From positions 1 through 64,000 of the forward strand of contig NZ_JABSNO010000015.1 in the NCBI RefSeq assembly GCF_013294015.1: 64,000 nt of DNA. Direction: 5' to 3'. Below the pieces are notes generated by a model. It was not told the DNA's origin. It did not search any database and saw nothing but the letters and a program-made list of their open reading frames with translations. Both the position numbers and the translations under genes were made by a program. The stretch is from Frigoriflavimonas asaccharolytica (GTDB lineage Bacteria > Bacteroidota > Bacteroidia > Flavobacteriales > Weeksellaceae). This document shows, one piece after another, positions 44,163 through 64,000 of the stretch; the stretch's first letter is position 1, and each line of letters starts with the position of its first letter.

Positions 44163-44217
44163 ATTTTGTCATTCCGCAGGAATCTAGCAGTGTGAGATTC
44201 CTGCGGAATGACAAAAT
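44163..44217. repeat. Long TGTCATTCC hairpin, copy 1 (bidirectional terminator-like)
   Basis: A perfect 23-bp stem: ATTTTGTCATTCCGCAGG continuing to 44185, pairing with 44195-44217, and a 9-base loop. It lies between two convergent genes, where a bidirectional terminator is expected. Close relatives are at 47100-47164 and 57413-57480. Confidence 0.85.
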
Positions 44218-47099: not shown

Positions 47100-47164
47100 T
47101 TTGTCATTCCGTAGGAATCTCAACATAAGGAAATTCTGGCGTGAGATTCCTACGGAATGACAAA
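47100..47164. repeat. Long TGTCATTCC hairpin, copy 2 (terminator of rsmG)
   Basis: A perfect 23-bp stem between 47100-47122 and 47142-47164, 19-base loop. The arms contain TTTGTCATTCCGTAGGAATC and its complement. It follows the rsmG stop (47181) by 16 bases on the minus strand. Confidence 0.85.
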
Positions 47165-50114: not shown

Positions 50115-50118
50115 TAGT

Positions 50119-50427
50119 ATGTACCAAGAATTAGCAGAAGATACTTTGCAAAATATTGTGGCAGAAAATAATCAGGTCATTGTTCAATACGGGGCAACTT
50201 GGTGTGGAAACTGCAGAATAATGAAGCCAAAATTTAAAAAATTGGCTGCAGAACACGAAAGCATTCCTTTCTATTATGTAGATGCCGAAAAATTACCAGA
50301 AAGTAGAAAATTAGCAAAAGTGGATAATTTACCAACCTTTGCAGTATTCAAAAATGGAGTTTTGGTAGAGCAAGCACAAACCAATCAGGCGGAAGTTTTG
50401 AACAACTTGTTCAATAATGCACAATAA
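50119..50427 (+). CDS. Thioredoxin-family protein (WCGNC active site)
   Basis: A 102-residue thioredoxin fold. The start at 50119 (4 bases after the peroxiredoxin stop) is preferred to an upstream ATG at 50059, because the first 20 residues of the longer form overlap the previous gene and do not fit the family. The active site is ATWCGNCRIMKPKFKKL (Cys 29 and 32). The middle pair is Gly-Asn rather than the Gly-Pro of standard thioredoxin, which usually shifts the redox potential. Probably the reducing partner of the adjacent peroxiredoxin. Confidence 0.88.
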   Translation: MYQELAEDTLQNIVAENNQVIVQYGATWCGNCRIMKPKFKKLAAEHESIPFYYVDAEKLPESRKLAKVDNLPTFAVFKNGVLVEQAQTNQAEVLNNLFNNAQ

Positions 50428-50446
50428 ATAAATTAAATTATTGAAA

Positions 50447-50478
50447 ACCTTCCAGAAAAAACTGGAAGGTTTTTTTTT
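50447..50478 (+). terminator. Terminator between thioredoxin-like and small DUF gene
   Basis: ACCTTCCAG (50447-50455) pairs with CTGGAAGGT (50462-50470), followed by a run of eight T. The next gene begins 20 bases further. It would end most transcripts after the thioredoxin gene, with read-through to the third gene. Confidence 0.9.
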
Positions 50479-50490
50479 AAAATAAATATA

Positions 50491-50739
50491 ATGAAAATAC
50501 CTATTATTAGACAGTTTGTGAGAGAACAATCTGTAGAAAATTTAGAAAAAGCAGTAGAAGTTTTGGAGAGCTTTTCAGAGTTTAGAGGAACGTCGGAAGA
50601 AGATTTAAATGTAGCTGGAGAATTGATTACAAATATGCTGGGAGCAATGGAAGTTCATGCAAGTATTGCCAATGGAATGGCAGAGAAAGATGCTTTGAAT
50701 GGTTTTGCACAGAAAGTTTTGGGATCTATAGATAAATAA
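50491..50739 (+). CDS. Small helical protein, DUF6952-like
   Basis: An 82-residue protein, mostly alpha-helical, without signal or membrane segments. MKIPIIRQFVREQSVENLEK and ESFSEFRGTSEEDLNVAGEL, ending LNGFAQKVLGSIDK. I recall this type in Bacteroidota downstream of peroxiredoxin and thioredoxin genes, but the exact family name is from memory. Role unknown; the neighbourhood suggests oxidative-stress linked expression. Confidence 0.7.
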   Translation: MKIPIIRQFVREQSVENLEKAVEVLESFSEFRGTSEEDLNVAGELITNMLGAMEVHASIANGMAEKDALNGFAQKVLGSIDK

Positions 50740-50762
50740 TTATCACTCAGAAATACAAAAGA

Positions 50763-50790
50763 AAAAGCAGAATCGTGAGGTACTGCTTTT
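50763..50790. terminator. Hairpin terminator between convergent genes
   Basis: AAAAGCAG (50763-50770) with CTGCTTTT (50783-50790), an 8-bp stem with AT ends. It lies between the small plus-strand gene and the minus-strand acyl-CoA reductase gene and could act in both directions. Confidence 0.65.
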
Positions 50791-50803
50791 CTATTATATT
50801 ATT

Positions 50804-51838
50804 TTAAATAACTTCCAGAAACTTCATCGTATCTACATTATCTGCATAATCGTCTAATTTTGGATATTGTGCTTCACCGAAATTAATAGAATCTAAGTTT
50901 AATTCTGGTTGCGCGACAATGCATTGAATTTGATCCTTATTCTCAGCAATAAATTTTTCAACTTCTGAAATATTTTTATATCTGGTAAAATGAATTATGG
51001 AAAGCGCACTAAAAAGCGAAGTTTCCTCTTTCAGCATTACAAAATTATTATCCCAAAAAACATCTTGATTCAATAATAAAATTGCTTTGTGATAATCGTA
51101 ATTATTGGCATAACTATTATGATTAATAATTTCGCTGTACTCGAAAAAATTTTCAAACAACCTATCGAGTTTAAAATCTTCTGGAATAAATAATTTAGTT
51201 ACATTTCTGCATCCCAAACCAAAATACTTAAATATATCTTTTGCTAAAAGCTGCAAATCTTCATTGGTTTCATCGCCTTTCAAGACAGAGATCGAAGTTC
51301 TGTTTTTACGGATAATGCTCAATTTATCTTTAAAATAGTATTCTAAATACCTCGCTGTATTATTACTGCCGGTTGCAATTACAGCGTCATTCTCTATCAA
51401 TCTTTCAACATATTCTATTTGCAATTTTTCTGCAGAGAAAGCCTCCCATTTTTCTAATAAAAAAGGCAGAAGCACTTTATCTTTTGAAGATAATTTGATG
51501 AGCGCTATATGGTTACTAAATACAACAGAAAGCACATCATGCAAACCCACTAAAGGAATATTCCCAGCCAAAATCAACCCAACTTTTTTAGGATTTTTAG
51601 ATATTTCATAGGTAGAAATCCAATTTTCTAAATTTTCTTGGGTGAAAAGATCTGCCCAATTTTTCAAACAAAATCTTAAATTCTCTTGAGAAAACCATCT
51701 ATTTTCTACTTCAGCACGGTTTAATTTTGATTGAAATTCTTCTTCATCTTTTGTGAAATTTTCATTTTTTCCATTTAAAAATAAATTGATGTAGTTTCCT
51801 AGTTTTACCAAGCCAGAAATTTGATTTTTAGTGCTCAT
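50804..51838 (-). CDS. LuxC-like acyl-CoA reductase
   Basis: A 344-residue enzyme of the LuxC/acyl-CoA reductase family, which belongs to the aldehyde dehydrogenase superfamily and reduces acyl-CoA to aldehyde. The cofactor-binding part includes VGLILAGNIPLVGLHDVLSV and TGSNNTARYLEYYFKDKLS. The catalytic Cys is in LGCRNVTKLFIPEDF near residue 211. It is shorter than LuxC proper. There are no LuxD, LuxE or luciferase genes here. It is divergent from the ferredoxin gene (60 bases between starts), and both sit beside serC and serA. Role in this setting unknown. Confidence 0.85.
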   Translation of the reverse strand: MSTKNQISGLVKLGNYINLFLNGKNENFTKDEEEFQSKLNRAEVENRWFSQENLRFCLKNWADLFTQENLENWISTYEISKNPKKVGLILAGNIPLVGLHDVLSVVFSNHIALIKLSSKDKVLLPFLLEKWEAFSAEKLQIEYVERLIENDAVIATGSNNTARYLEYYFKDKLSIIRKNRTSISVLKGDETNEDLQLLAKDIFKYFGLGCRNVTKLFIPEDFKLDRLFENFFEYSEIINHNSYANNYDYHKAILLLNQDVFWDNNFVMLKEETSLFSALSIIHFTRYKNISEVEKFIAENKDQIQCIVAQPELNLDSINFGEAQYPKLDDYADNVDTMKFLEVI

Positions 51839-51865
51839 TATGGTCAGAATTTGCTTTAATTTTTG

Positions 51866-51873
51866 TAATTTTG
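51866..51873 (+). promoter_or_regulatory. -7 promoter box of the ferredoxin gene
   Basis: TAATTTTG (51866-51873), 25 bases before the ATG at 51899, in the 60-base gap shared with the divergent acyl-CoA reductase gene. No TTG at -33 with a good spacer. Confidence 0.4.
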
Positions 51874-51898
51874 TGTAAATTTAAAACAATAATTAGCA

Positions 51899-52249
51899 AT
51901 GGCTATTATAATAACAGACGAATGTATTAATTGTGGTGCATGTGAACCAGAATGTCCGAACAACGCCATCTATGAAGGTGCAGTAGATTGGAAGGCTTCC
52001 GAAGGTACCGCATTGAAGGGAATGGTAACTTTGAAATCTGGCTTAACAACCGATGCAGATACTCCACAAGAACCCGTGAGTGACGATGTTTACTTCATTG
52101 TTGCAGATAAATGTACCGAATGCATGGGCTTTCATGAAGAACCACAATGTGCGGCAGTTTGCCCAGTAGATTGCTGTATTCCTGATGAAGATCATGTAGA
52201 AACCGAAGAAAGCTTGCTAGCAAAAAAACAATTTTTGCATCAAGAATAA
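51899..52249 (+). CDS. 2[4Fe-4S] ferredoxin
   Basis: A 116-residue electron carrier. The first cluster motif is CINCGACEPECP (Cys 9, 12, 15, 19). The second is CTECMGFHEEPQCAAVCPVD with the longer 8-residue gap between second and third Cys, as in Allochromatium-type ferredoxins. An insertion of about 40 residues lies between clusters. The partner redox enzyme is unknown; the divergent acyl-CoA reductase and downstream serine genes are the closest candidates by position. Confidence 0.93.
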   Translation: MAIIITDECINCGACEPECPNNAIYEGAVDWKASEGTALKGMVTLKSGLTTDADTPQEPVSDDVYFIVADKCTECMGFHEEPQCAAVCPVDCCIPDEDHVETEESLLAKKQFLHQE

Positions 52250-52328
52250 ATTTTTTTACAAATTTGACTATTCTTTTAAAAATCAATCAAAAATTTTTCA
52301 ATTTTAATTCATATAATAAAAACTAAAC

Positions 52329-53384
52329 ATGAAAAAGCATAATTTTAGTGCAGGTCCGTGTATTTTGCCACAAGAAGTTTTCCAAAAATCTGCAGATGCA
52401 ATTTTAGAATTCAACGGAAGTGGGCTATCTCTTTTGGAAATGTCTCACAGAAGCAAAGATTTTGTAGCCGTTATGGATGAAGCCAGAGCAATCGTAAAAA
52501 GATTGATGAACCTAAATGACGATTATGAAGTACTATATTTAGGTGGTGGTGCAAGCATGCAATTTTTGATGGTTGCCTACAATTTGCTTTCTACAAACGG
52601 AAAAGCAGCTTATACAAATACAGGAACTTGGGCAGCAAATGCTATAAAAGAAGCCAAAAGATTTGGAAATGTAGATGTAGTAGGTAGTTCTAAAGAAGAA
52701 AATTACTCTTTCATCCCGAAAGATTATTCTGTAGGTTCGGAATATGATTATTTCCATTGTACATCCAACAATACAATATATGGAACGCAAATGAAAGATT
52801 TTCCAGAAGTGGATACTTTGATGGTTTGCGATATGAGCTCAGATATTTTTTCTCGCCAGTTAGATTTCTCAAAATTTGATCTTATTTATGCTGGTGCACA
52901 AAAAAATATGGGACCTGCAGGTGTAACTGTAGTCGTTGTGAAGAAAGAAATTCTAGGTAAGTCTGGTAGAGATATACCATCCATATTGGATTATGAGGTT
53001 CACATCAAAAAAGAATCAATGTTCAATACGCCACCAGTTTTTCCAGTATATGCTACGCTACTAACGTTGCAGCATCTAGAAAATAATGGTGGGATTGCAG
53101 CAGCAGAAATTAAAAATAATGCAAAAGCTAAATTAATCTATGATGAAATAGATAGAAACCCGTTGTTTGAAGGTTTCTGCGCAAAAGAAGATCGATCTAC
53201 AATGAATGCTGGTTTCAAATTAATAGATGAATCTAAAAAAGAAACTTTTGATGCAGCTTGGAAAGAAGCAGGCATCAATGGATTAAACGGACATAGAAGT
53301 TTGGGCGGTTACAGAGCAAGTATGTATAATGCATTGCCAATTGAAAGTGTAGAAGTTTTGGTAAATGTGATGAAATCTCTTTAA
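52329..53384 (+). CDS. serC: Phosphoserine aminotransferase
   Basis: A 351-residue PLP enzyme that makes 3-phosphoserine from 3-phosphohydroxypyruvate and glutamate; it also serves in pyridoxal phosphate synthesis in some bacteria. Motifs: KKHNFSAGPCILPQEVF at the N-terminus, GGGASMQFLMVAYNL, YAGAQKNMGPAGVTVVVVKK with the PLP Lys, and HRSLGGYRASMYNALP near the C-terminus (phosphate binding). Length is normal for SerC. serA follows after 33 bases, so the two are in one operon. Confidence 0.96.
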   Translation: MKKHNFSAGPCILPQEVFQKSADAILEFNGSGLSLLEMSHRSKDFVAVMDEARAIVKRLMNLNDDYEVLYLGGGASMQFLMVAYNLLSTNGKAAYTNTGTWAANAIKEAKRFGNVDVVGSSKEENYSFIPKDYSVGSEYDYFHCTSNNTIYGTQMKDFPEVDTLMVCDMSSDIFSRQLDFSKFDLIYAGAQKNMGPAGVTVVVVKKEILGKSGRDIPSILDYEVHIKKESMFNTPPVFPVYATLLTLQHLENNGGIAAAEIKNNAKAKLIYDEIDRNPLFEGFCAKEDRSTMNAGFKLIDESKKETFDAAWKEAGINGLNGHRSLGGYRASMYNALPIESVEVLVNVMKSL

Positions 53385-53417
53385 TAAAAATTGAAGATTA
53401 ATTCTTAAAATAATTAA

Positions 53418-54383
53418 ATGAAAATTTTAGCAAACGATGGAATCTCTAAAGCTGGTGAAAATGCATTGAAAGATGCAGGTTTTGAATTTCTAGATAATAC
53501 AGTAGCTCAAGAGCAATTAGCAAATTTTATCAACGAAAATCAGGTAGATGTTCTTCTAGTAAGAAGCGCAACTACTGTAAGAGAAGATTTGATCAACGCT
53601 TGCCCTACTTTGAAGGTTGTTGGACGTGGTGGTGTTGGTATGGATAATATAGATGTAGAATATGCCAGAAACAAAGGTCTTCATGTAATAAATACACCTT
53701 TAGCTTCTAGCAGATCTGTAGCAGAAATGGTATTTGCGCACTTCTTTACACTTGCAAGAAATTTGCACGAGTGCAACAGATTGATGCCATTAGAAGGAGA
53801 TACAGACTTTAAAAAGTTAAAAAAAGCATTCAGCAATGCTGTAGAATTAGAAGGTAAAACTTTAGGAGTTATTGGTTTTGGCCCAATTGGTCAAGAAGTG
53901 ATGAAAATCGGTATATCATTAGGAATGAAGGTTAAAGTATTAACAAGAAACCCTAAAACTGAAACTTTAACGTTGAACTTTTTTGACGGACAAAAGGTAA
54001 ATTTCGAGATAACTTCTACCAATAATTGGGATGAATTTTTGAAAGATACCCAATTCATTACCTTAAACACACCAAAAACGAACGAGTATATTCTGGATAC
54101 ACCACAATTTGAAAAAATGATGGATGGTGTTTTCATCGTTAATACCGCAAGAGGTGGCGTTATCAATGAAGTTTCTATGGTAGATTTTATATCTAATGGG
54201 AAAATTGCAGGTGCTGCTCTAGATGTTTTTGAAAGCGAACCGAAACCAGAATTAGCATTATTAATGAATCCTTCCCTTTCGCTTTCCCCACATTTGGGCG
54301 GTAATACATTGGATGCTCAAGAAAAAATTGGACTAGAACTCGCTGAACAAATCATTGCAATAAATAAGAAATTACAGAATTAA
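53418..54383 (+). CDS. serA: D-3-phosphoglycerate dehydrogenase
   Basis: A 321-residue NAD-dependent enzyme that begins serine synthesis. The Rossmann motif is LGVIGFGPIGQEVMKIG, and VVGRGGVGMDNIDVEYARN, NTARGGVINEVS and SLSPHLGGNTLDAQEKIG (catalytic His) are family signatures. It is short because it lacks the C-terminal ACT domain, so serine feedback through that domain is not expected. The DUF1015 gene begins at the base after the stop. Confidence 0.93.
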   Translation: MKILANDGISKAGENALKDAGFEFLDNTVAQEQLANFINENQVDVLLVRSATTVREDLINACPTLKVVGRGGVGMDNIDVEYARNKGLHVINTPLASSRSVAEMVFAHFFTLARNLHECNRLMPLEGDTDFKKLKKAFSNAVELEGKTLGVIGFGPIGQEVMKIGISLGMKVKVLTRNPKTETLTLNFFDGQKVNFEITSTNNWDEFLKDTQFITLNTPKTNEYILDTPQFEKMMDGVFIVNTARGGVINEVSMVDFISNGKIAGAALDVFESEPKPELALLMNPSLSLSPHLGGNTLDAQEKIGLELAEQIIAINKKLQN

Positions 54384-55625
54384 ATGCCTATTTTCAAGCC
54401 ATTTCGTGGAGTTAGACCGCAGGAAAATTATATAGATATTTTTCCTACACATCCGCTGGATAATTATTCCCAATTAGAAATCAACAAAAAAGCACAACAA
54501 GATTCTTCTTATGTGCAGATGATAAAACCTTATGTGGTAAGTAAATCTAAAGATGTAGATAGAAATTTGCGCAAAATCAGAACTAATTATGAAGAATTGG
54601 TAGCTGATAAAAAATTGATGCAAGACAATTCTTCCTATTATCTCTATGAACAAATTTATCCCAACAAAACGGTTTTTCGCGGTTTACTTGGATTGACGAG
54701 TGTTGAAGAATTTATCGACGGAAAAATAAAAAAACACGAAAGCACTATTAAGAAAAAGAAAGCGAAACTAGCGCACTATTTAGAGAAGGTCAACCTTCAA
54801 GCGGAGCCAGTTTTACTCACTTATCAATCTAATTCTCGGGTAGAATTATTGATGAATCATGAAGAAAAAAATCTTCCATTATTTAGTTATGAAGATAGTA
54901 AAAACATTAAGCACAAACTTTGGAAAATAGATAATCGACTGAAAATGCAACAGTTGAAAGAAGCAATAGCAGATATTGATGCTTTTTATATTGCAGACGG
55001 ACACCACAGAATTGGCTCTACTGCACTCAACGCAAAATTTCAAAAAGAGAAAAATAAAAAACATACAGGGCAAGAACATTACAATTTTGTCTATAGTTTT
55101 ATCGTTTCCAATCAATCTATTAAAATAAACGATTTCAATAGAATTGCAAAAAATTTACACGGTCTCACTGCCGCAGAATTTTTGAAAAAGCTTGAAACAT
55201 CATTCAATATTTACGACAAAGGCGAAACTCCTTATTTCCCGTCTAAAAAGTTTCACATTTCTATGTACTTAGAAGGCAAATTCTACTCTTTGCACGTAAA
55301 ACACGAGTTGAGATCAGAAGAAATAGACATCAATCATTTAGATCATCATTTATTAGATACGCTAATTTTTAAAAATATCTACGGTATAGAAAACACAGAT
55401 GCAAGCGAAGATATTACCTATCTAAAAGGAAATTCTACCGTAGATGGGATCGTAAAATTAAAAGAATTTGTAGACGAAAACGATTTTGCAGCAGGTTTTG
55501 GAGTATATCCCGTGAGTTTTAAGGAAATTCTACAAATATCTGATAATAAAATTACGATGCCACCAAAGTGCACCTATATAGAACCAAAACTGATTACGGC
55601 ATTGCTAATGTATGATATGAAATAG
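54384..55625 (+). CDS. DUF1015-family protein
   Basis: A 413-residue cytoplasmic protein. It begins MPIFKPFRGVRPQENYIDI, typical of DUF1015, and carries the signature YIADGHHRIGSTAL near residue 200. The family has no established biochemical role. In Bacteroidota it lies with serA and serC, as here (start at the base after the serA stop), which links it to serine or 3-phosphoglycerate metabolism by context only. It has no obvious phosphatase motif. Confidence 0.9.
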   Translation: MPIFKPFRGVRPQENYIDIFPTHPLDNYSQLEINKKAQQDSSYVQMIKPYVVSKSKDVDRNLRKIRTNYEELVADKKLMQDNSSYYLYEQIYPNKTVFRGLLGLTSVEEFIDGKIKKHESTIKKKKAKLAHYLEKVNLQAEPVLLTYQSNSRVELLMNHEEKNLPLFSYEDSKNIKHKLWKIDNRLKMQQLKEAIADIDAFYIADGHHRIGSTALNAKFQKEKNKKHTGQEHYNFVYSFIVSNQSIKINDFNRIAKNLHGLTAAEFLKKLETSFNIYDKGETPYFPSKKFHISMYLEGKFYSLHVKHELRSEEIDINHLDHHLLDTLIFKNIYGIENTDASEDITYLKGNSTVDGIVKLKEFVDENDFAAGFGVYPVSFKEILQISDNKITMPPKCTYIEPKLITALLMYDMK

Positions 55626-55631
55626 ATTTAT

Positions 55632-55707
55632 TTGGGCAGCAAAATCCGCCTTCCGTTCCCATTCTTTTTTTGCAAAAAAAGGAATTCCACTCAAGTCGGG
55701 CTGCAAA
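55632..55707. repeat. Dispersed element with variable palindromic core, copy 3
   Basis: TTGGGCAGC, then CCGCCTTCCGTTCCC, a core CTTTTTTTGCAAAAAAAGG palindrome, then CCACTCAAGTCGGGCTGC. The flanks match copies 1 and 2; the core is the simplest of the three. It lies between the DUF1015 and M28 peptidase genes. Confidence 0.75.
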
Positions 55708-55783
55708 TTATCGCATTTTCAAAAGATATATTCAATATTAAAATTAACTTTTATTGATGATCATTTTATCAAAATTTAAATAA

Positions 55784-57148
55784 ATGACAAAACTCTTTAC
55801 CATCATTCCGCTCTTTTTGGGTGGAATTTTATTTTCACAAAAGACCATCAGCGATGCAGATATGTTCAAAACTATTTCCACAGAAATACTACTGAATAGC
55901 AAAGTGTACGAAGATTTGCGAGAATTGACCAAAGATGTTGGCCCACGTTTTAGCGCAACACCAGGTTATGCAAAAGCAACGGATTGGGCAGAAAAAAAAA
56001 TGAAACAATACGGAGCTCAAAATATCTACAAACAAGAAGTTGTAGTTCCCGTTTGGAAAAGAGGAAGAGAATCTCTGCAAATAAAAACCGAAAAAGGAAA
56101 TTATAAAAACATAAGAATGCTTGCTTTAGGTGGTTCCGAAGGTACAAATGGCAAAGATTTAACGGGAGAAATCCTCTTTGTGAAAGACCTAACGGAGTTC
56201 AACAAACTATTTTCCAATGATGTAAAAGATAAAATCGTTTTTTTCAATTTCGCGTTTGATCAATCTATCGTAAATCCAGCAGATGCTTATAATATCGCAG
56301 GAAAATACCGATGGACTACACCATCTTTGGTAAGCAGAAAAGGCGCAAAAGCAGTAATCACAAGATCAGCAACTTCCGCTTTTGACGATGTACCGCACAC
56401 GGGAAGTATGTATTATGATAAAGATGAACTAAACAAGGTTCCTGCAATTACCATCGGAGCAAAAAGTGCAGACGAACTAGAACAACTCTTAAAAACACAG
56501 AAGGTTTTTGCGAAAATAAACACAACTTCTGGCACAAAAGGAACAGCCATCAACCATAATGTAATTGGAGAAATCCCTGGAACTTTAGATAAAAGCGTTA
56601 TTTTAATAGGTGCACATTTAGATTCTTGGGATATTTCTGAAGGAGCGCATGACAATGGAGCTGGCGTTGTGCATTGTCTAGAAGTTTTGCGCGCCTTCAA
56701 AGCGATGGGCTATAAAAATAAACATACCATAAGAGTTGTACTTTTTGCCAATGAAGAAAATGGAGTTCATGGTGGCGAAAAATATGCCGAAGAAGTAAAA
56801 AAGAAAGGCGAAAAACATTTATTCGCGATAGAAAGTGATGCAGGAGGATTTGCACCTCGTGGTATTTCTTTGGATATGGTAGCACAAAGGCGAAGATTGA
56901 TTTTTGCTTTCAAAGATTTATTTTTACCGTATGGCGTGTATAATTTTGATGAAGAATATGCCGGACAAGACATTGTTCCTCTCAAAAAGCTTGGCGTTCC
57001 GCTAGCAGAGTTGGTACCGGATATGCAAAGATATTTTGACATTCACCATACTTCAGAAGATACTTTTGATAAAGTAAACCGACGAGAATTAATGTTGGGT
57101 GCAGTTTCTATTGCGCAGATTGTTTACATGATTGATCAAAGGTGGTAG
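55784..57148 (+). CDS. M28-family metallopeptidase, secreted
   Basis: A 454-residue peptidase of the carboxypeptidase Q / aminopeptidase type. The signal peptide ends GGILFSQ. Zinc ligands in family order: ILIGAHLDSWD (His, near 277), GAHDNGAGVVHCLE (Asp), FANEENGVHGGEK (catalytic and metal Glu), AIESDAGGFAPRG (Asp) and FDIHHTSEDTFDKV (His). A protease-associated-like stretch lies between about 90 and 200. It would cleave peptides in the periplasm. No T9SS tail. The tandem 21-bp array begins 12 bases after its stop codon. Confidence 0.93.
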   Translation: MTKLFTIIPLFLGGILFSQKTISDADMFKTISTEILLNSKVYEDLRELTKDVGPRFSATPGYAKATDWAEKKMKQYGAQNIYKQEVVVPVWKRGRESLQIKTEKGNYKNIRMLALGGSEGTNGKDLTGEILFVKDLTEFNKLFSNDVKDKIVFFNFAFDQSIVNPADAYNIAGKYRWTTPSLVSRKGAKAVITRSATSAFDDVPHTGSMYYDKDELNKVPAITIGAKSADELEQLLKTQKVFAKINTTSGTKGTAINHNVIGEIPGTLDKSVILIGAHLDSWDISEGAHDNGAGVVHCLEVLRAFKAMGYKNKHTIRVVLFANEENGVHGGEKYAEEVKKKGEKHLFAIESDAGGFAPRGISLDMVAQRRRLIFAFKDLFLPYGVYNFDEEYAGQDIVPLKKLGVPLAELVPDMQRYFDIHHTSEDTFDKVNRRELMLGAVSIAQIVYMIDQRW

Positions 57149-57159
57149 ATTTTTAAATT

Positions 57160-57358
57160 AGGATCGCCTACCAAATGTTTAGGCGAGCCTACCAAAAGTT
57201 AAGGTGAGCCTACCAAATAGTAAGGTCGACCTACCAAATGTTAAGGTGAGCCTACCAAATATTAAGGCGTACCTACCAAATGATTAGGTGAGCCTATGAA
57301 ATGTTTAGGCGCACCTATCAAATATTTAGGTGAGCTTATGAAATATTAAGGTTAGCCT
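57160..57358. repeat. Tandem array of ten 21-bp units with palindromic AGG-N4-CCT cores
   Basis: Cores start at 57160, 57181, 57202, 57223, 57244, 57265, 57286, 57307, 57328 and 57349, exactly 21 bp apart. Consensus core AGGTGAGCCT (variants AGGTCGACCT, AGGCGAGCCT, AGGCGCACCT; unit 9 ends CTT), followed by ACCAAATRTTW. Cores 2 and 4 are true palindromes (arms AGGC/GCCT and AGGT/ACCT). Stops interrupt the plus-strand frame that could give heptads such as KVSLPN, so it is not a coding repeat as it stands. The last units are more diverged. Confidence 0.9.
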
Positions 57359-57412
57359 TTAAAATTTTCATGTATGCCCGTTTTTAGCAATAACATTACT
57401 AAATCAACACAA

Positions 57413-57480
57413 TTTTGTCATTCCGTAGGAATCTCAACGCATTGTCAAACAGAACGCTAGATTCCTATGGAATGACAAAA
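57413..57480. repeat. Long TGTCATTCC hairpin, copy 3
   Basis: A 22-bp stem between 57413-57434 (TTTTGTCATTCCGTAGG onward) and 57459-57480, with a single G-U pair and a 24-base loop. It lies after the tandem array and before the SanA-like gene on the plus strand. The same family as 44163-44217 and 47100-47164. The rest of 57149-57542 is AT-rich with no gene. Confidence 0.8.
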
Positions 57481-57542
57481 AACTGTATAAATAGCTTCAG
57501 ATGATAAATTACGGATAGACATAAAATTTTAAAAAATATCAA

Positions 57543-58109
57543 TTGAAAGCCTTTATAAAAATACTAAAAACATTATTATTATTTCTGCTCCTCTGGTTCA
57601 GTCTGCACTCTATCTACATAATCTGCGACGGTTTGCACGATAAAAATACAAAAGCGGATGTTGCGATTGTTTTAGGAAATAAAGTAAACGAAGACGGAAC
57701 GCTCTCTAAAAGATTAGAAGAAAGATTAAACCAAAGCATTAAATTATTTGAAACTAAACGCGTTCAAAAAATAATTGTAAGTGGTGGTTTGGGGAAAGAA
57801 GGCTTTTGGGAAGGTACCGAAATGCAGAAATATTTAATAGAAAATAATATTCCCACAGACAGAATAATCGTGGATAATAAAGGAATTGATACAGAGGCAA
57901 CAGTCCGCAATTCTATCGAAATAATGGATAGTTTACAATACAAATCCGCAATTTCTGTATCGCAATATTTTCATCAAACCAGAACGAAAGGTTTATTCGT
58001 GAAAAATGGTTTCCAAAATATAGAAAGTTCCAGCCCAAATTATTTTGAATGGCGAGATTTTTACGCAATTTTTCGGGAGTTTTTTGCTTTTTATAGTCAG
58101 GTTTTCTAA
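57543..58109 (+). CDS. SanA/YdcF-like (DUF218) membrane-anchored protein
   Basis: A 188-residue protein starting with TTG at 57543, as no ATG precedes the membrane helix. One N-terminal helix (LLLFLLLWFSLHSIYIICDG), then a DUF218 domain: ADVAIVLGNKVNEDGTLSKR, KIIVSGGLGKEGFWEGTEM, NNIPTDRIIVDNKGIDTEAT and SVSQYFHQTRTKGLFVKNGF. DUF218 proteins (SanA, YdcF) act on cell-envelope integrity or bind SAM in other bacteria; the reaction is unresolved. Stand-alone gene. Confidence 0.85.
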   Translation: MKAFIKILKTLLLFLLLWFSLHSIYIICDGLHDKNTKADVAIVLGNKVNEDGTLSKRLEERLNQSIKLFETKRVQKIIVSGGLGKEGFWEGTEMQKYLIENNIPTDRIIVDNKGIDTEATVRNSIEIMDSLQYKSAISVSQYFHQTRTKGLFVKNGFQNIESSSPNYFEWRDFYAIFREFFAFYSQVF

Positions 58110-58136
58110 ATTACTATTTAAATTTATTATCTTAAT

Positions 58137-58559
58137 ATGTGCGATTTTACACAAGGTTTTATTTTATCTAAATCTACTCAACAACTGAAAATAATTCATA
58201 ATAAGAAGTCAAGGAAAATTAAGAAGGAAAATAAAAAAAATGATTTCATTGTATTTCAATGTTATTTATATGAATATTTAGGCTTAAAAATTAAACATGA
58301 AACTGGTAGATTTGGGCGTCCTTCTTAGGATCTTGGTTTTGGATTAAATTCACAATCTGTTCTTAAACAATTAAATAGTAAACAATGTTTTGATTTTGAT
58401 TATCAACCTAAAGAAGGAGATAATTTAATAATCATGATTAATACGGGACTTAACAAAATAGAATTTATTTTTAAAAATAGTATTTGGATTGAGGATTATT
58501 ACGATCCTTTCTTGCATGTATATTTACAAACTGAAGAAGGTATAGTTTTAGAAAATTAG
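58137..58559 (+). pseudogene. Unidentified protein gene interrupted by one in-frame TAG
   Basis: Reading from the ATG at 58137 gives 63 codons, then TAG at 58326-58328, then 76 more sense codons in the same frame to a TAG at 58557-58559, with no frame shift. The first part contains KNDFIVFQCYLYEYLGLKIK and ends TGRFGRPS; the second starts DLGFGLNSQSVLKQL and contains DNLIIMINTGLNKIEFIFKN. Both halves look like ordinary protein, so the simplest reading is a 140-codon gene broken by a nonsense mutation. Alternatives: sequencing error, read-through, or two short genes (the second has an ATG at 58435). The family is not recognised. Confidence 0.75.
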
Positions 58560-58564
58560 AATAA

Positions 58565-58594
58565 AAAAGGCTTCCAATATATTGAAAGCCTTTT
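58565..58594 (+). terminator. Hairpin terminator after the interrupted gene
   Basis: AAAAGGCTT (58565-58573) pairs with AAGCCTTTT (58586-58594), with inner CAAT and ATTG. The arm ends in T and A runs, so it can stop transcription from both the plus gene and the convergent immunophilin gene. Confidence 0.75.
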
Positions 58595-58660
58595 GTAAAT
58601 TTTAAAGAAAAACAGATTTAAAATCTATCTTCTTACGTCTATTTTCTATTATCTTAAAGA

Positions 58661-59764
58661 TTAGCTTTTCACCAATTCTACATCAAATACCAACCAAGCG
58701 TTTCCTGGGATTACTCCTCCTGCTCCATTTGCACCATATCCTAATGCTGGTGGAATCAATAATGTTGCAGTTTCACCTTCTTTCAAAAGCATGATACCTT
58801 CGTCCCAACCTTTTATTACTCTTCCCATTCCTACAGGAAATTCAATAGGCTCTCCTCTTTTGAAGGAATTATCGAATTCAGTTCCGTCTATCAATTTTCC
58901 AGCGTAGTGTACAGCAACATTATTTCCTGCAACTGGTGCTTTTCCGTCTGTGGTTTTTGTTATTTTATAATATAATCCAGATTCTGTTGCTGTCATTCCA
59001 GCTTTCATTTCGTCTACCATCTTAATTTGATTATTTTTAAAATCTTCTTCTTTTTTCTTTTTTGCAGCTTCTAATTCGGCAGCAATTTTTTTGTTATTTT
59101 CTTCTATTTTGCCTTTACCATCATTAAAAATTTTAGCAGCATCATATTTTTTGTATTCATCTCCTTTAGAGAAAATACTTACTTTTTCTAAAACAATGTC
59201 CGTTTTTGGCTTATCCTGAGCACCTCTTGGTTCTGCAACAATGGCATCTATTACGTTCAAACCTTCTACTACTTTCCCGAAAATAGTATGTCTACCATTT
59301 AAATGCGGAGTTGGAACTTGCGTGATGAAAAACTGAGAACCATTGGTATTTGGTCCAGAATTCGCCATAGAAAGAACCCCTTTTTCTGAATGAGTAAGGT
59401 CGTTTTTCTCGTCAGCAAATTTGTATCCAGGATCTCCCATTCCTGTTCCTTTTGGATCTCCACCTTGGATCATAAAGTTTTCTATCACACGGTGAAAAAT
59501 AGTGCCATCATAAAAAGGAACTCCTTTCGCTTTTGCTTTGTTTTCTATTTTTCCCTCAGCCAAACCTGCAAAATTTGCCACGGTAACTGGAGCTTTTTTG
59601 TCTTCCAGCTTTACGATCATGTTTCCTTTTGTAGTTTGCAGATTGGCATACAATCCGTCTTGTAATCCTTCGTAAGTTTGTTTTTCTACGTTCATTTTTT
59701 TGTAAATTGGTGTGCAACTCATCAAAGATAGAGCTGCGAATATTAATATAATTTTATTTTTCAT
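58661..59764 (-). CDS. Dual-family immunophilin: cyclophilin fused to FKBP, lipoprotein
   Basis: A 367-residue peptidyl-prolyl isomerase with lipoprotein signal (IFAALSLMSC). Residues about 40-200 are a cyclophilin domain (IFHRVIENFMIQGGDPKGTG, NGSQFFITQVPTPHLNGRHT). A charged coiled-coil linker (about 215-250) leads to an FKBP domain (about 265-367: VAVHYAGKLIDGTEFDNSFK, ALGYGANGAGGVIPGNAWL). Fusions of the two immunophilin families are rare and were described in Flavobacterium and spirochaetes. It acts on secreted proteins in the periplasm. It overlaps the GldI-like gene by 11 bases, so the two are co-translated. Confidence 0.9.
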   Translation of the reverse strand: MKNKIILIFAALSLMSCTPIYKKMNVEKQTYEGLQDGLYANLQTTKGNMIVKLEDKKAPVTVANFAGLAEGKIENKAKAKGVPFYDGTIFHRVIENFMIQGGDPKGTGMGDPGYKFADEKNDLTHSEKGVLSMANSGPNTNGSQFFITQVPTPHLNGRHTIFGKVVEGLNVIDAIVAEPRGAQDKPKTDIVLEKVSIFSKGDEYKKYDAAKIFNDGKGKIEENNKKIAAELEAAKKKKEEDFKNNQIKMVDEMKAGMTATESGLYYKITKTTDGKAPVAGNNVAVHYAGKLIDGTEFDNSFKRGEPIEFPVGMGRVIKGWDEGIMLLKEGETATLLIPPALGYGANGAGGVIPGNAWLVFDVELVKS

Positions 59765-60278
59765 TTTTTTCCAAAATTTTTAAATTGATGATTAAAGGAA
59801 TATCTGCTTCTATTTGTTGCCCGTCTCCAGAGGTTCCAAATGCTAATGCAGATGGCACCAAAAGTTTTATTTCTTCACCAATTTTCATTTTCATCAAAGC
59901 GTTTTCTACAGCTTTTATATCATTTAATTTTCCTAATGGAATATCTCGGAAACCTCTTGGTTGCTTATAGACTTTTGTTCCTTCAAAATCCTCTATCAAA
60001 TAACTGTAAGAGATTATTTGATCTTCTGGATTATCTACTCTTTTATCAAAACCTTCCACATTTACCCAATAATTAAGAGGCATGGTGTAGAATTTTTCTT
60101 TTTGATTTTTCATCCATTCTTCCATCAAACGTCTTTCTACTTCATTGATGTTTTTTGCGCGATCTCTAGATTCTTGCATTTCACTTTTTTCTTTCGAACT
60201 CCCAACTGGAGCATAGATTTCTTGCTCTTTTGTACAGCTTAAAATTAAAAATAAAAAAAGTAAATATTTTGCGTGCAT
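59754..60278 (-). CDS. gldI: GldI-like FKBP-type peptidyl-prolyl isomerase lipoprotein
   Basis: A 174-residue lipoprotein (LLFLFLILSC), then a helical N-terminal part (RRLMEEWMKNQKEKFYTMPL) and an FKBP-like domain (YSYLIEDFEGTKVYKQPRGF, KIGEEIKLLVPSALAFGTSG). Length, arrangement and motifs match GldI of Bacteroidota, a gliding-motility lipoprotein linked to T9SS function. This assignment is from the family pattern. It is encoded just before the fused immunophilin, whose start overlaps its end. Confidence 0.8.
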   Translation of the reverse strand: MHAKYLLFLFLILSCTKEQEIYAPVGSSKEKSEMQESRDRAKNINEVERRLMEEWMKNQKEKFYTMPLNYWVNVEGFDKRVDNPEDQIISYSYLIEDFEGTKVYKQPRGFRDIPLGKLNDIKAVENALMKMKIGEEIKLLVPSALAFGTSGDGQQIEADIPLIINLKILEKNEK

Positions 60279-60380
60279 AATCTTCTGCGAAAATAAGAAT
60301 TTACGATCAAATACAAAAAAATAAAGCCAGAAACAAATCCGACTTTATAATAATTTATGATATTTTCTTAAAATTAAATT

Positions 60381-61442
60381 TTAATTATTCTTCTCAACTT
60401 TTAATCTCCATCCAAAAGGATCTTCACATAAGTTGGATTGTATGGATGTTAATTTATTTTTAATCGTCAATGCATAGCTATCTTCATCAGACAATTCTGG
60501 CAAATCATATTTTTCATTTTGGAAACCGAAAGATTTAAAAACAGTTGTTACCACAGCTGTTCCAACTCCCCACATTTCTCTTAATGTTCCATTTTTCTGA
60601 GCTTCCATCACTACATCTACAGATATTGGCTCCACTTGTACATTCATCTGTAGACTTTGCGCCAATTGTATGAAGCTATCTCTGGTTACACCATCCAATA
60701 TTTTTTCAGAAATTGGTGGAGTATAAATAGTATCATTAATTCTCACAAAAACGTTCATTGTTCCGCTTTCTTCAAGATATTGGTGCGTAGAATCGTCTGT
60801 CCAAACTATTTGGTCATATCCTTCTTCCATTGCCAATCTTGTTGGGTGAAAAGCTGCAGCATAGTTTCCTGCCGCTTTCGCGAATCCTACTCCACCGTTT
60901 GCAGATCTAGAATAGTATTCTGCAATTTTCACAGAAACTGGTTCTGTATAGTACGATTTTGCAGGTGTAGCTACAACAGCAAACATATATTTCTCTGAGA
61001 TTCTAGCTTTCAAAATTTCTTCTGTAGCAAAAATAAGCGGGCGAATGTATAAAGACAAGCCTTCTCCATGAGGAATCCACGCTCTTTCCATATCTACTAA
61101 TGTTTTGATGCCATCCATGAACATTTCCTCTGTTACTTCTGGCATTGCCAATCTGCTTGCAGATTTATTTATCCTTGCAAAATTTTTCTCTGGTCTAAAT
61201 AAAAATACGTCGCCGTCTTTATCTTTGTAGGCTTTCATACCTTCAAAACAGGCTTGTCCGTAGTTGATTCCCATCATTGCCGGCGAAAAACCAAGTGGAC
61301 CATAAGGAACTATTTTTGGTTCGCCCCATTTTCCATTTTCAAATTCACAAATCACCATGTGATCTACAAAAGTATTTCCAAAAGAAAAATTTTCTGGATC
61401 AAATGTTGAAATTCGAAGATTGTCAGATTTTTGAATGATCAT
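60381..61442 (-). CDS. ilvE: Branched-chain amino-acid aminotransferase
   Basis: A 353-residue PLP fold-type IV enzyme that transfers amino groups between leucine, isoleucine, valine and their 2-oxoacids. Motifs: YGPLGFSPAMMGINYGQACF, EGMKAYKDKDGDVFLFRPEK, VGFAKAAGNYAAAFHPTRLA (PLP Lys near 185), and QYLEESGTMNVFVR. The family is BCAT-type, not D-amino-acid transaminase. It fits with the fused E1 gene upstream in the same window, since both act on branched-chain 2-oxoacids, though the genes are far apart. Stand-alone gene. Confidence 0.95.
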   Translation of the reverse strand: MIIQKSDNLRISTFDPENFSFGNTFVDHMVICEFENGKWGEPKIVPYGPLGFSPAMMGINYGQACFEGMKAYKDKDGDVFLFRPEKNFARINKSASRLAMPEVTEEMFMDGIKTLVDMERAWIPHGEGLSLYIRPLIFATEEILKARISEKYMFAVVATPAKSYYTEPVSVKIAEYYSRSANGGVGFAKAAGNYAAAFHPTRLAMEEGYDQIVWTDDSTHQYLEESGTMNVFVRINDTIYTPPISEKILDGVTRDSFIQLAQSLQMNVQVEPISVDVVMEAQKNGTLREMWGVGTAVVTTVFKSFGFQNEKYDLPELSDEDSYALTIKNKLTSIQSNLCEDPFGWRLKVEKNN

Positions 61443-61523
61443 TTCTTAAAATATTGAGGTTAATTTTTGCTTATAAATAATTCACTAATATAATAAATTT
61501 AGTTTAAATTTGAAAAAAAACCT

Positions 61524-62204
61524 TTGAATAGAATTATAAAAGATACCAAAGACGGAAGCAAAACACTATACGTCAATGCTTTAGATGAAACTTACCACTC
61601 CCATCATGGTGCATTGCAGGAGGCGGAACATGTTTTTATTAAAAATGGATTGAAAAAGATAAATCTTAATCAGATTAACATTTTGGAAATGGGATTCGGT
61701 ACAGGTCTGAATGCTTTAGTTACAATTGATGAGTTTTTGAAAAATGAATCTATCAATAAAATTAACTATTATACCTTAGAAAAATATCCCGTAAATTGGA
61801 GTGAAATAGCAGAATTGAACTATTCTCAACATTTTTCTTCAGAAAATATGATTATTTTTAATCAGAAGATTCATGAAGCAGAGTGGGAAAAACCTGTAGA
61901 AATACTCCCAAATTTTAACTTAATAAAAATAAATCAAGATTTTTTTAATCTGGATAAAATTGATTTGCCACCTATTGATGTTATTTATTATGATTGCTTT
62001 GGAGCGAGAGTACAGCCAGATTTGTGGGAAGAAAATTTAATAAAAATGACCACAGACAAAATGGCAAAGAATGCCTTGTTCACTACTTATTCGTCTAAAG
62101 GAAGTGTGCGTAGAATTTTGCAAAGTTTGAATTTGAATGTAGAAAAACTAGCCGGACCTCCCGGAAAAAGAGAAATGATGAATGCTTGGAAAAATGAATT
62201 ATAA
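61524..62204 (+). CDS. MnmD-like tRNA (5-methylaminomethyl-2-thiouridine-34) methyltransferase
   Basis: A 226-residue SAM-dependent methyltransferase, start TTG at 61524. Motifs: ILEMGFGTGLNALVTIDEFL (SAM binding), IDVIYYDCFGARVQPDLWEE (catalytic Asp region) and TYSSKGSVRRILQSLNLNVE followed by KLAGPPGKREMMNA. This is the methyltransferase domain of MnmC without the oxidase domain; the stand-alone form is called MnmD in some bacteria. It modifies wobble uridine of tRNAs. The Nudix gene starts 4 bases after the stop. Confidence 0.85.
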   Translation: MNRIIKDTKDGSKTLYVNALDETYHSHHGALQEAEHVFIKNGLKKINLNQINILEMGFGTGLNALVTIDEFLKNESINKINYYTLEKYPVNWSEIAELNYSQHFSSENMIIFNQKIHEAEWEKPVEILPNFNLIKINQDFFNLDKIDLPPIDVIYYDCFGARVQPDLWEENLIKMTTDKMAKNALFTTYSSKGSVRRILQSLNLNVEKLAGPPGKREMMNAWKNEL

Positions 62205-62208
62205 TAAT

Positions 62209-62631
62209 ATGATAGACAAAATAAACGTTAGAATATACGCCGCTGCAATAAATAACGGAAAAGTACTTGCCCTTTTTGAAGAATATGCTGGCGAAAAATT
62301 GATAAAACTTCCTGGTGGTGGTTTAGAATTTGGCGAGGGAATTTTAGATTGTCTACATCGCGAATTTGCGGAAGAATTAAATGTAAAAATTAAAATCAAA
62401 GAGCATTTATACACCCAAGAAAATTTTCAAGTTTCTAAATTTAGACCAAACGAGCAACTTTTGACAGTTTATTATATTGTAGAGATTATAAATATGGAAG
62501 ATTTTTTAATAATGGATTCTTGTATAGAAAAGGTAGAATGGTATCCAATTGATGCTAAGATCAACCCCTTCAAACTACCAATTGATATCATCGCTTTCGA
62601 AAAATTACAAGAAAAATTTTTAAGAAAATAA
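62209..62631 (+). CDS. Nudix hydrolase
   Basis: A 140-residue protein (the start at 62209, after the preceding stop, is preferred over overlapping ATGs at 62182 and 62194). The Nudix box is GGLEFGEGILDCLHREFAEE then LNV; it follows the GX5EX7REUXEEXGU pattern except that the last Gly is Asn. It hydrolyses a nucleoside diphosphate linked to another moiety; the substrate is unknown. Probably co-transcribed with the methyltransferase gene. Confidence 0.85.
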   Translation: MIDKINVRIYAAAINNGKVLALFEEYAGEKLIKLPGGGLEFGEGILDCLHREFAEELNVKIKIKEHLYTQENFQVSKFRPNEQLLTVYYIVEIINMEDFLIMDSCIEKVEWYPIDAKINPFKLPIDIIAFEKLQEKFLRK

Positions 62632-62632
62632 A

Positions 62633-63334
62633 TTATTTCTTCATTTTGTAATTTTCATAGCCATCATAAGGTTGCAGATAACCAGCATTCCAATTACTTT
62701 GCAAAAGAGATTCTAAAAATAAATCTGTCCTATTATTATAAGGATCATAGGGTTCTTTGATGCTTACGTCTGCTATATTTCCCTTCACATTCCACCAAAA
62801 TGCACTCCAGTTCCCACGCAATTCTTTAATGATCTCAAACACTGTTTTTCCGGTTGCTCTGTGCAATAATTTCGTAAAAACTTTGCCTTCCGTTGTTGTT
62901 AAATTCATTATTTGGGATTGATATTCATCTGCGAGAGCACTTTGTTTTTGACGAATTAATTTTCTTTGATCTTCGCGCGGAAGCGCTGCAACTTCTTCCT
63001 GTATGTCTCTATATTGCTCCAAAGCTTTTAAAAATAAGGGATACACTCGGTACAATTTTTTATTCAAAAAATAATAATAATTGCGATCTAGCTGGTTGTT
63101 AAATTTTGGTTTGTTGGCGATGATCAATTCATCCATTACCACCACAGTTTCCCCATTTATATCGTAAATTTTCGCTTTTTGCTTAGCATCATAATAATAT
63201 TTATTACCAAATTCGTCCGTTTTCAGATCGCTAGATTCGTAGGAACTTAATGGTTGTGCGATTATTGGATCCTGTGAAAAAGCAAAAACTCCCAAAAACA
63301 TCAATAAAACTAGATAAAACTTATTAAAATTCAT
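62633..63334 (-). CDS. DUF4294-family exported protein
   Basis: A 233-residue protein with signal peptide MNFNKFYLVLLMFLGVFAFSQ. The mature protein begins with a short beta region (FGNKYYYDAKQKAKIYDI), then conserved helical sequence (YYYFLNKKLYRVYPLFLKAL, TEGKVFTKLLHRATGKTVFE, then LRGNWSAFWWNVKGNIADVS), which resembles DUF4294, a Bacteroidota family of unknown role. The C-terminus has a Tyr/Asp-rich stretch. It is convergent with the Nudix gene, 1 base apart. Confidence 0.78.
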   Translation of the reverse strand: MNFNKFYLVLLMFLGVFAFSQDPIIAQPLSSYESSDLKTDEFGNKYYYDAKQKAKIYDINGETVVVMDELIIANKPKFNNQLDRNYYYFLNKKLYRVYPLFLKALEQYRDIQEEVAALPREDQRKLIRQKQSALADEYQSQIMNLTTTEGKVFTKLLHRATGKTVFEIIKELRGNWSAFWWNVKGNIADVSIKEPYDPYNNRTDLFLESLLQSNWNAGYLQPYDGYENYKMKK

Positions 63335-63386
63335 TATTTTTACTCATTCAAATTAAAAAAAATACTCACAAAAATCATTCCCTTTT

Positions 63387-64000
63387 ATGAAGTTTCCAAA
63401 AAAATCGCTCACGTTTCTAGAACAATACTTAAATACATCTTCACCAACTGGTTTTGAAAGAGAAGGTCAGAAAGTTTGGATGGATTATTTAACGCCTTAT
63501 GTAGACAAGATAGAAGTAGACCATTATGGTACATGCTATGGAATCATCAATCCAGAGGCAGAATTTAAAGTAGTGATAGAAGCACATGCAGACGAGATTT
63601 CTTGGTATGTGAATTATATTACAGATGATGGAATGATTTACGTTATCCGAAATGGTGGATCCGATCAGATGATTGCACCATCAAAAATAGTAAGCATCCA
63701 TGGCGAAAAAGGCATCGTGAAAGGTGTTTTTGGCTGGCCAGCAATCCACACAAGAATGGGTGCAGAAAAAGAAACCACGCCAAAATTAGAAAACATCTTT
63801 ATAGATTGTGGCGCAATTACGAAGCAAGAAGTAGAAGATTTAGGAATTTATGTTGGTTGCATGATCACTTATCCCGACGAATTTTTTGAGATGAACGACA
63901 GATATTTCGTTTGTAGAGCTTTAGACAATAGAATTGGTGGATTTATGATTGCCGAAGTGGCGAGACTTTTAAAAGAAAACAAAAAAACACTTCCTTTCGG
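63387..64000 (+). CDS. M42-family metallopeptidase (partial, runs off the window)
   Basis: At least 204 residues, start ATG at 63387, cut off at the end of the window. N-terminal LEQYLNTSSPTGFEREGQKV, VVIEAHADEISWYVNYI (first metal ligand His), VKGVFGWPAIHTRMGAEKE and CRALDNRIGGFMIAEV (bridging Asp) match the M42 glutamyl/general aminopeptidase family, which trims peptides in the cytosol as a large shell. The catalytic Glu pair lies past the window. Confidence 0.9.
   Translation, partial: MKFPKKSLTFLEQYLNTSSPTGFEREGQKVWMDYLTPYVDKIEVDHYGTCYGIINPEAEFKVVIEAHADEISWYVNYITDDGMIYVIRNGGSDQMIAPSKIVSIHGEKGIVKGVFGWPAIHTRMGAEKETTPKLENIFIDCGAITKQEVEDLGIYVGCMITYPDEFFEMNDRYFVCRALDNRIGGFMIAEVARLLKENKKTLPF

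Follow-up and report, generated by a model that had tools for sequence, protein, structure and literature searches.

A phased 21-bp repeat array of Frigoriflavimonas asaccharolytica and a small-protein gene linked to arrays of the same kind

We describe a gene, found mainly in Flavobacteriales, that encodes a protein of about 160 amino acids and lies directly upstream of an array of short palindromic units spaced at 21 bp. At all 13 gene-linked loci, which comprise intact or frameshifted copies of the gene, the array is situated 23-272 bp past the stop codon. An array of this type occupies positions 57160-57358 of the window, by which we mean the whole analysed stretch of 64,000 nucleotides (Frigoriflavimonas asaccharolytica, contig NZ_JABSNO010000015.1, positions 1 to 64,000). 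The genome of the window carries the gene together with its cis array on another contig (C4), and in our judgement the chances are evenly balanced that the window array belongs to this gene-array system as an 'orphan'.

The sequence-only reading of the window had stated that no element of this kind was described. This did not hold, as bacterial tandem repeats with a constant size of 20-21 nt form a described class, the function of which is called enigmatic (Subirana and Messeguer, 2021, PMC8161180). According to the available text of three papers (PMC8161180, PMC6749651, PMC8625621) such repeats are mostly non-coding, occur as several arrays per genome and have a short motif that is common within a species. 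The available text of PMC8161180 suggests that a protein polymerises along the DNA and depends on the constant spacing; the text names neither a candidate protein nor a partner gene. Within the largely open-access literature we recognised no report of a gene linked to constant-size 20-21-nt repeats. The arrays described here resemble that class in unit size, in being non-coding and in occurring several times in one genome (three in that of the window) with a common motif. They differ in that the motif crosses genera, that some arrays occupy orthologous sites and that a protein gene is linked to them. As to species-specificity of the sequence, genome dialects are present, yet the AGG-N4-CCT core is common to several genera. 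The constant-size repeat array itself is hence a described class, and new here is the gene-array link.

The window array and its repeat unit

The array sits between two co-directional genes, and the features of this region are the following.

55784..57148, + strand: M28 peptidase gene (454 aa; Pfam PF04389, E 1.9e-28), upstream, ends 11 bp before core 1
57160..57358, no strand assigned: 21-bp array of ten cores, consensus unit AGGTGAGCCTACCAAATGTTA, A-rich strand is +
57370..57379, no strand assigned: possible degenerate core 11, ATGTATGCCC, 4/6 core letters, 21-bp register kept
57417..57476, no strand assigned: imperfect inverted repeat, arms GTCATTCCGTAGGAATCT / GTCATTCCATAGGAATCT, starts 58 bp past the array
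57543..58109, + strand: DUF218-domain gene (188 aa, TTG start as listed; Pfam PF02698, E 3.8e-20), downstream

The cores start at 57160, 57181, 57202, 57223, 57244, 57265, 57286, 57307, 57328 and 57349, and all nine steps measure 21 bp, confirming the earlier claim of ten cores without a single slip. That all ten read AGG-N4-CCT applies to nine of them; the ninth (57328) is AGGTGAGCTT, i.e. AGG-N4-CTT. A two-core pattern with at most one mismatch gave 15 matches in the window, every one inside the array, and none in 100 dinucleotide-preserving shuffles. Tandem Repeats Finder reported periods of 21, 42 and 63. The 11-bp spacers resemble one another, and agreement between units is 0.97 at the six core letters versus 0.64 at the other fifteen. 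The units had been described as decaying toward the right end, and here it is mostly the spacers that change. Palindromic symmetry was seen for the outer AGG/CCT letters; the consensus of the whole unit is ordinary in this respect, since 48 of 500 column shuffles were equally good.

The inverted repeat at 57417..57476 was not judged part of the array. Arms similar to GTCATTCCGTAGGAATCT match six times in the window (at most three mismatches) against 0.02 expected, and form three inverted pairs at 44168-44212, 47103-47161 and 57417-57476. They are a dispersed hairpin-type repeat in the window.

For the anatomy of the unit we used 32 arrays, mostly from Flavobacteriales (one of them, L122, filed as Bdellovibrio). 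The set is without G008, which is near-identical to G266, and without L079 and L152, which were found later. Arrays were chained with steps of 17-25 bp allowed and non-21 steps penalised, and under this scheme spacing was 21 bp in 349 of 363 steps, 22 bp in 12 and 20 bp in 2. The chained arrays run head-to-tail with 7-27 units each. The two most distant relatives, both outside the 32, keep a looser register: L079 has steps of 21 (8), 22 (3) and 23 bp (2) with the strongest lag at 22, and L152 has steps of 21 (8) and 22 bp (2). The core is a short split palindrome of the form (T)AGGYNNRCCT(A), present about ten times per array, and is accompanied by a short A-tract about one helix turn further. 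Across 331 interior units, taken without a score filter, the letters A, G and G each reach 0.92 and the letters C, C and T reach 0.94, 0.91 and 0.95, values that are inflated because the arrays were found by AGG/CCT. In the same units A is found at position 11 in 0.86 and at positions 14-16 in 0.80, 0.93 and 0.92; these frequencies are inflated by orienting the arrays on spacer A content, although the A-tract was not a search criterion. Independent of orientation, AAA or TTT is present in 299 of the 331 spacers, compared to 195.8 expected from their letters.

The paired positions of the core bear on the question whether the arrays act as RNA, i.e. as a hairpin-string transcript that would work as an sRNA or sponge or together with the linked protein, which we regard as unlikely. 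Core position 4 usually carries C or T, and position 7 G or A, and in 303 filtered units, from which those with fewer than 4 of the 6 core letters were dropped, the two are not fully independent (C-G 133, C-A 57, T-A 49, T-G 34). This partial dependence suits an RNA stem, and so does the flank pair -1/+1, which pairs slightly above expectation (215 vs 203.1). Yet the non-pairing C-A combination at 4/7 is among those seen, with its 57 cases, and the flank pairs -2 to -5 pair at expectation only. Pair 3-8 has C/C 17 times and G/G 9 times, with zero alternative Watson-Crick pairs, and pair 2-9 shows just 2 A-T, compared to 17 G-T, which RNA tolerates as a wobble, and 17 A-C, which it does not. 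Paired positions of the core thus mostly vary on one side at a time in the filtered units, and such one-sided changes would suit DNA half-sites better than an RNA stem. Core-centre complementarity between adjacent units (2.01) also does not exceed that between non-adjacent ones (2.04). On either strand the window array folds better than its shuffled versions do (z -5.43 and -4.44), but this is expected of any palindromic repeat, and Rfam gave no match at gathering score in window positions 50000-64000. The available text of PMC8161180 proposes transcribed repeats and, with RNA-seq, supports this for 52-nt repeats of Bacillus coagulans.

The regular register and the conserved cores were also weighed against a functionless satellite, in which the arrays would originate by slippage, drift freely and lie close to a gene through hitch-hiking of a mobile cassette. 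We hold this for improbable. Super-periods of 42 or 63 bp do occur in some arrays, as slippage would have it, but drift should lose the register that nearly all steps keep, and it should diverge the units evenly, whereas the core letters of the window array agree far better than the rest. Likeness between units is 0.697 at distance 1 and 0.685 at distance 6, so that neighbours are on average no closer than distant units. The earlier description as a spreading tandem repeat is therefore not favoured, despite the super-periods.

Since 21 is a multiple of three, the period might reflect a protein repeat of seven codons, to which we assign next to no chance. At least one open frame exists in 12 of the 32 arrays, including examples from F. 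branchiophilum and L122 and a frame of 142 aa over part of the L089 array. However, all six frames are stopped in the other 20, the three arrays of the window's genome among them, and spacings of 20 and 22 bp exist. The window array has 4, 8, 7, 6, 5 and 10 stops in the six frames over 57160-57379. This bears out the earlier statement that no coding frame survives, and a coding repeat is ruled out for this array. Where an array overlaps an open frame (L089:1572-2000, L217:3755-4063, L042:3982-4245), heptapeptides such as VLVGAPM appear; they look like a by-product of a period divisible by three.

A small-protein gene upstream of related arrays

Three of the 13 gene-linked loci (L223, L224, L229) were reached by protein search and the other ten via the array pattern first; the L223 array may also be among the matches of the array pattern. 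A profile search of 23 Epilithonimonas genomes recovered the gene in G266, in G274 (Epilithonimonas mollis DSM 18016, Weeksellaceae per NCBI) and in G283 (the MAG 'uncultured Chryseobacterium S1C26695_SP210'), a frameshifted copy in G287 and a remnant of 34 aa in G284. All four non-remnant copies are followed straight by an array, and those of G274 and G287 were newly revealed in this way. The remnant in G284 has no adjoining array, and this genome carries an array elsewhere. Among 249 Flavobacterium genomes the gene is present in 2, with three copies in total, each having its own array. Gene and array are also found together at L122, at L157 (Flavobacteriaceae MAG SJ88), at L079 (Bacteroidetes MAG) and at L152 (Taibaiella soli).

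Several of these loci deserve a remark of their own. The frameshift in G287 (L224, L226) splits the partner gene, and the adjoining array has the lowest mean core score of 31 arrays (4.75/6). The contig of L122, with partner gene and array, is filed under a Bdellovibrio MAG; its genes look like Flavobacteriales by eye, and the filing is probably a binning error. On contig C4 of the window's genome a reading frame of 71 aa lies near the gene-linked array (L051:2291-3568, L003:1098-1313), as does a gene for a C-5 cytosine DNA methylase (PF00145, E 9.3e-102).

Across 320 genomes of the family a trace of the gene, remnant included, was found in 7, an array in 10 and both in 6 (Fisher p 1.0e-9, uncorrected for kinship). 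When only Epilithonimonas is considered, the association becomes weak (p 0.033, likewise uncorrected for kinship). Arrays without the gene are present in the Epilithonimonas genomes G008, G269, G275 and G282. Among 395 genomes of the phylum the gene was found solely in that of the window. The fidelity of the cores is only slightly, and not significantly, higher where an intact gene is present (Mann-Whitney p 0.08). The T-rich orientation of the array coincides with the sense of the gene at 10 of 13 loci, which is not significant (p 0.09). Among the at least 117 pattern stretches listed, of up to 8 kb each, 6 contain a member of the first protein family, 2 a member of the second one described below, and 109 contain neither.

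Between gene and array lies a terminator-like hairpin, which was detected by script at 9 of the 13 loci and by eye at the remaining four. At L051, L045 and L227 the script had fused the hairpin with unit 1, and at L049 the first two units form one; the scripted array start of these four loci takes in hairpin sequence that scores as a unit. A terminator-like hairpin ahead of the array argues against a functional transcript of the repeats. Together with the mostly one-sided changes in the core, it makes the repeat RNA that had been offered as one reading of the window array less likely than sites in DNA.

The members of the protein family have an invariant MAEGREGY motif and are acidic, with a pI of 4.6-5.6 in 12 of 12 proteins. 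An alignment-based model is all-helical with a mean pLDDT of 80.8 and a pTM of 0.52, and it was this model, rather than an earlier one with a pLDDT of 62.8, that was used in the fold searches. Pfam gave no match above the cut-off for 10 members; the best was NNH7 (E 9e-4, protein of the window's genome), and NNH7 matched below the cut-off in 5 of the 10, with E up to 1. No match was obtained with NCBIfam and PADLOC for three members or in a sequence search of the PDB. Foldseek against the PDB reached a best E of 0.58, and neither this search nor one against viral models yielded a hit at E <=0.001. The best VIA-align Z of 4.7 is within the usual range for helical models. No DNA-binding family or fold was recognised in any of the Pfam, NCBIfam, PADLOC, PDB and Foldseek searches. 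By tblastn the family had no match on 72,556 plasmids or on phages, and viral contigs held no relative. Because the protein is acidic, has no named family and gave no significant fold match, we infer that it binds the array sites from the linkage, the spacing and the symmetry, and this may be wrong. The protein may also need a partner protein.

A gene that is linked to one set of intergenic palindromes invites comparison to REP/BIME elements and their RAYT genes. In these, palindromes are scattered over intergenic sites, one set lying beside the gene and many being orphans; the present arrays are likewise dispersed and intergenic, with a gene-linked set and orphans. If the linked gene moved or copied the units in the same manner, the arrays would be mobile palindromes, which we consider very unlikely. 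Here, the units form strict head-to-tail arrays at 21 bp, neither single nor in opposed pairs, and the 10 members of the linked family that were searched matched no transposase family. Furthermore, in a flank comparison of 22 arrays the likeness within a genome extends over 20-56 bp only (G596, F. aquariorum), paralogous genes aside.

Plasmid iterons and partition sites such as the omega and ParR arrays are helically phased short repeats beside a small-protein gene, and in this they are like the arrays reported here. They differ in that the present system has several orphan arrays, that the linked protein matches neither Rep, ParB nor omega and is absent from the plasmids searched, and that the window array has M28 and DUF218 genes as neighbours. 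As regards partition of the ParABS type, the model of the protein has no significant fold match and is compatible with a partition-type protein all the same. CRISPR arrays, too, are regular repeats beside a protein gene, but the present unit is far shorter and its spacers are alike instead of unique. No Cas family was found among the two window neighbours and the linked protein.

Spread, persistence and dialects of the arrays

When the genome of the window was searched at the DNA level, two further arrays came to light, on contigs C3 and C4, with all steps at 21 bp. A four-core pattern with at most three mismatches detected arrays in 10 of 320 genomes of the family, compared to 4 of 320 for the reversed control (G250, G269, G283, G291), and in 5 of 395 genomes of the order, two of which are Flavobacterium, compared to 2 of 395 for the control (G045, G468). 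Related arrays thus occur in Epilithonimonas, Flavobacterium and their relatives, some at orthologous intergenic positions. They are neither absent from every relative nor present there as random single copies; either of these outcomes would, by the sequence-only reading, have spoken against a functional role.

Orthologous positions were identified with gene names (thiolase, MFS, thioesterase, ABC transporter) that were assigned by eye. The gap that separates a thiolase gene from an MFS gene was readable by script in 16 of the 23 Epilithonimonas genomes. Six of these have an array there, with 9-13 units; the other 10 have none, and their gap measures 96-256 bp. Such sporadic presence is what a functionless satellite would predict. 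An alignment of the six arrays has internal gaps of 21, 21, 84, 42 and 20 bp, and the array of G274 includes one step of 22 bp. The gaps are whole units, the one of 20 bp lying beside the 22-bp step. This gain or loss of whole units between orthologous arrays is likewise in keeping with a satellite. G269 and G274 have a common array between a thioesterase-like gene and a gene for 711 aa, and G274 and G284 both carry arrays upstream of a gene for an ABC-transporter-like protein of 582 aa. The pattern evidence for G269 by itself is no better than its reversed control, and the array was retained because its two neighbouring genes are the same as those of an array in G274.

Arrays within one genome have a common core 'dialect'. 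This was assessed on 31 arrays labelled by genome, L070 being excluded. With one array of F. aquariorum labelled apart, the core-centre distance within genomes is 2.44 versus 3.81 (sd 0.31), a value reached in 0 of 5000 permutations. It is 2.71 versus 3.80 (1 of 5000) when the array of the second F. aquariorum paralogue keeps its genome label, and 2.16 versus 3.22 (6 of 5000) if, in addition, strand orientation is disregarded. The dialect within a genome could also stem from common descent of its arrays. Flavobacterium aquariorum (G726; L227, L229) has two paralogous copies of the gene, and a separate 21-bp array follows each of them, one with AGGCGNGCCT-like cores and the other with AGGAGCTCCT and AGGAGGACCT cores. 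Two paralogues with two dialects offer a natural specificity-swap test. The arrays of Flavobacterium G627 are of the AGGAGCTCCT type.

An exact three-core pattern matched at least 117 named stretches, plus 13 viral contigs. Outside Flavobacteriales many of the matches fall in GC-rich DNA or are homogeneous repeats, and their spacers differ; they were treated as mostly unrelated. Several 21-bp arrays were seen in each of three MAGs: a Spirochaetaceae MAG (Pc512_bin84; L058, L067, L124, L126, L131) with one main core, AGGTATACCT, a Planctomycetaceae MAG (L088, L113) with one main core, AGGTGTACCT, and a Verrucomicrobiaceae MAG (L069, L094, L123) with AGGC-N2-GCCT variants. Both partner protein families are absent from the DNA examined of these three MAGs, and their arrays are maybe of the same class with other partners.

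A second protein family and the proposed assembly

A different protein was found beside the array of L070 (Flavobacteriaceae MAG), which lies 5' of a gene for 225 aa without a Pfam family. In 208 genomes of the phylum a protein search returned two relatives, in G887 (same class, different order) and in G1025 (different class). Just upstream of the gene in G887 are 16 units of 21 bp without an indel. Upstream of the G1025 gene Tandem Repeats Finder sees no array; the 5' flank shows 21-bp autocorrelation with a z of 7.7, compared to -1.0 for the 3' control; at four other loci examined in the same way the controls ranged from -1.4 to 1.7. A further member, L091, came from a profile built on the first two proteins. 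Its contig is filed as Prosthecobacter and has an array on the 5' side of the gene, and the spread beyond Bacteroidota is carried by this MAG contig. Hence, 21-bp periodic DNA is present on the 5' side at all four loci of the second family, with a different unit sequence at every one. L232 and L233 were reached by the protein, the other two via the array pattern first. Against 500 column shuffles, the palindromy of the core was equalled in 0 cases for L070, 0 for L091 and 13 for L233 (weak); that of L232 is no better than chance (193 of 500). Profile comparison detected no relation between the two protein families, and the second had no match on plasmids. That two families without detectable kinship both have 21-bp arrays linked to them, and that these differ in sequence, is not what one expects of a functionless satellite.

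With the chances in our estimation near an even split, the arrays would serve as phased DNA sites, probably for nucleoprotein assembly, in a system made up of a gene, its cis array and orphans. The earlier suggestion of an array for a dimeric DNA-binding protein, or of a chromosome-organising site, is still the best mechanism at hand. It is consistent with the near-constant register, the split palindrome with its A-tract and the linked protein gene, and the binding itself is inferred from these. In such an assembly the encoded protein of about 160 aa, or its partner, would recognise the cores, and each palindrome would be occupied by a dimer. Because spacing by two helix turns puts all cores on one face of the helix, bound dimers could line up and contact one another in a row, forming a phased nucleoprotein cluster. 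The A-tracts, which recur at the same two-turn interval, would tend to bend the DNA uniformly. The cis array would tie the gene to its sites, and orphan arrays would be extra docking sites, of which the window array, with the gene of its genome on another contig, might be one. The row could help to organise the chromosome, it could locally insulate transcription, or it could act selfishly in the manner of a partition system.

Slightly below an even chance, we place a broader two-part system, in which at least two families of small proteins would each be encoded beside a phased 21-bp array, with orphans of the same dialect, to build sequence-specific nucleoprotein assemblies, and in which protein and dialect would change together. 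The array would lie 3' of the gene in the first family and 5' in the second. If true, the missing protein would have been found for at least some of the tandem repeats of constant size in bacteria. The gene-array link offers candidate proteins from two families, cis as well as orphan sites provided by nature and natural losses of the gene, and it makes the purpose of constant-size repeats testable by a simple binding assay.

In 300 kb of G887 two further arrays were reported by Tandem Repeats Finder, which by eye have the core in common. The contig of the second-family arrays in this genome also carries another 21-bp array of unrelated sequence (L240:9169-9375), with about ten units and no indels.
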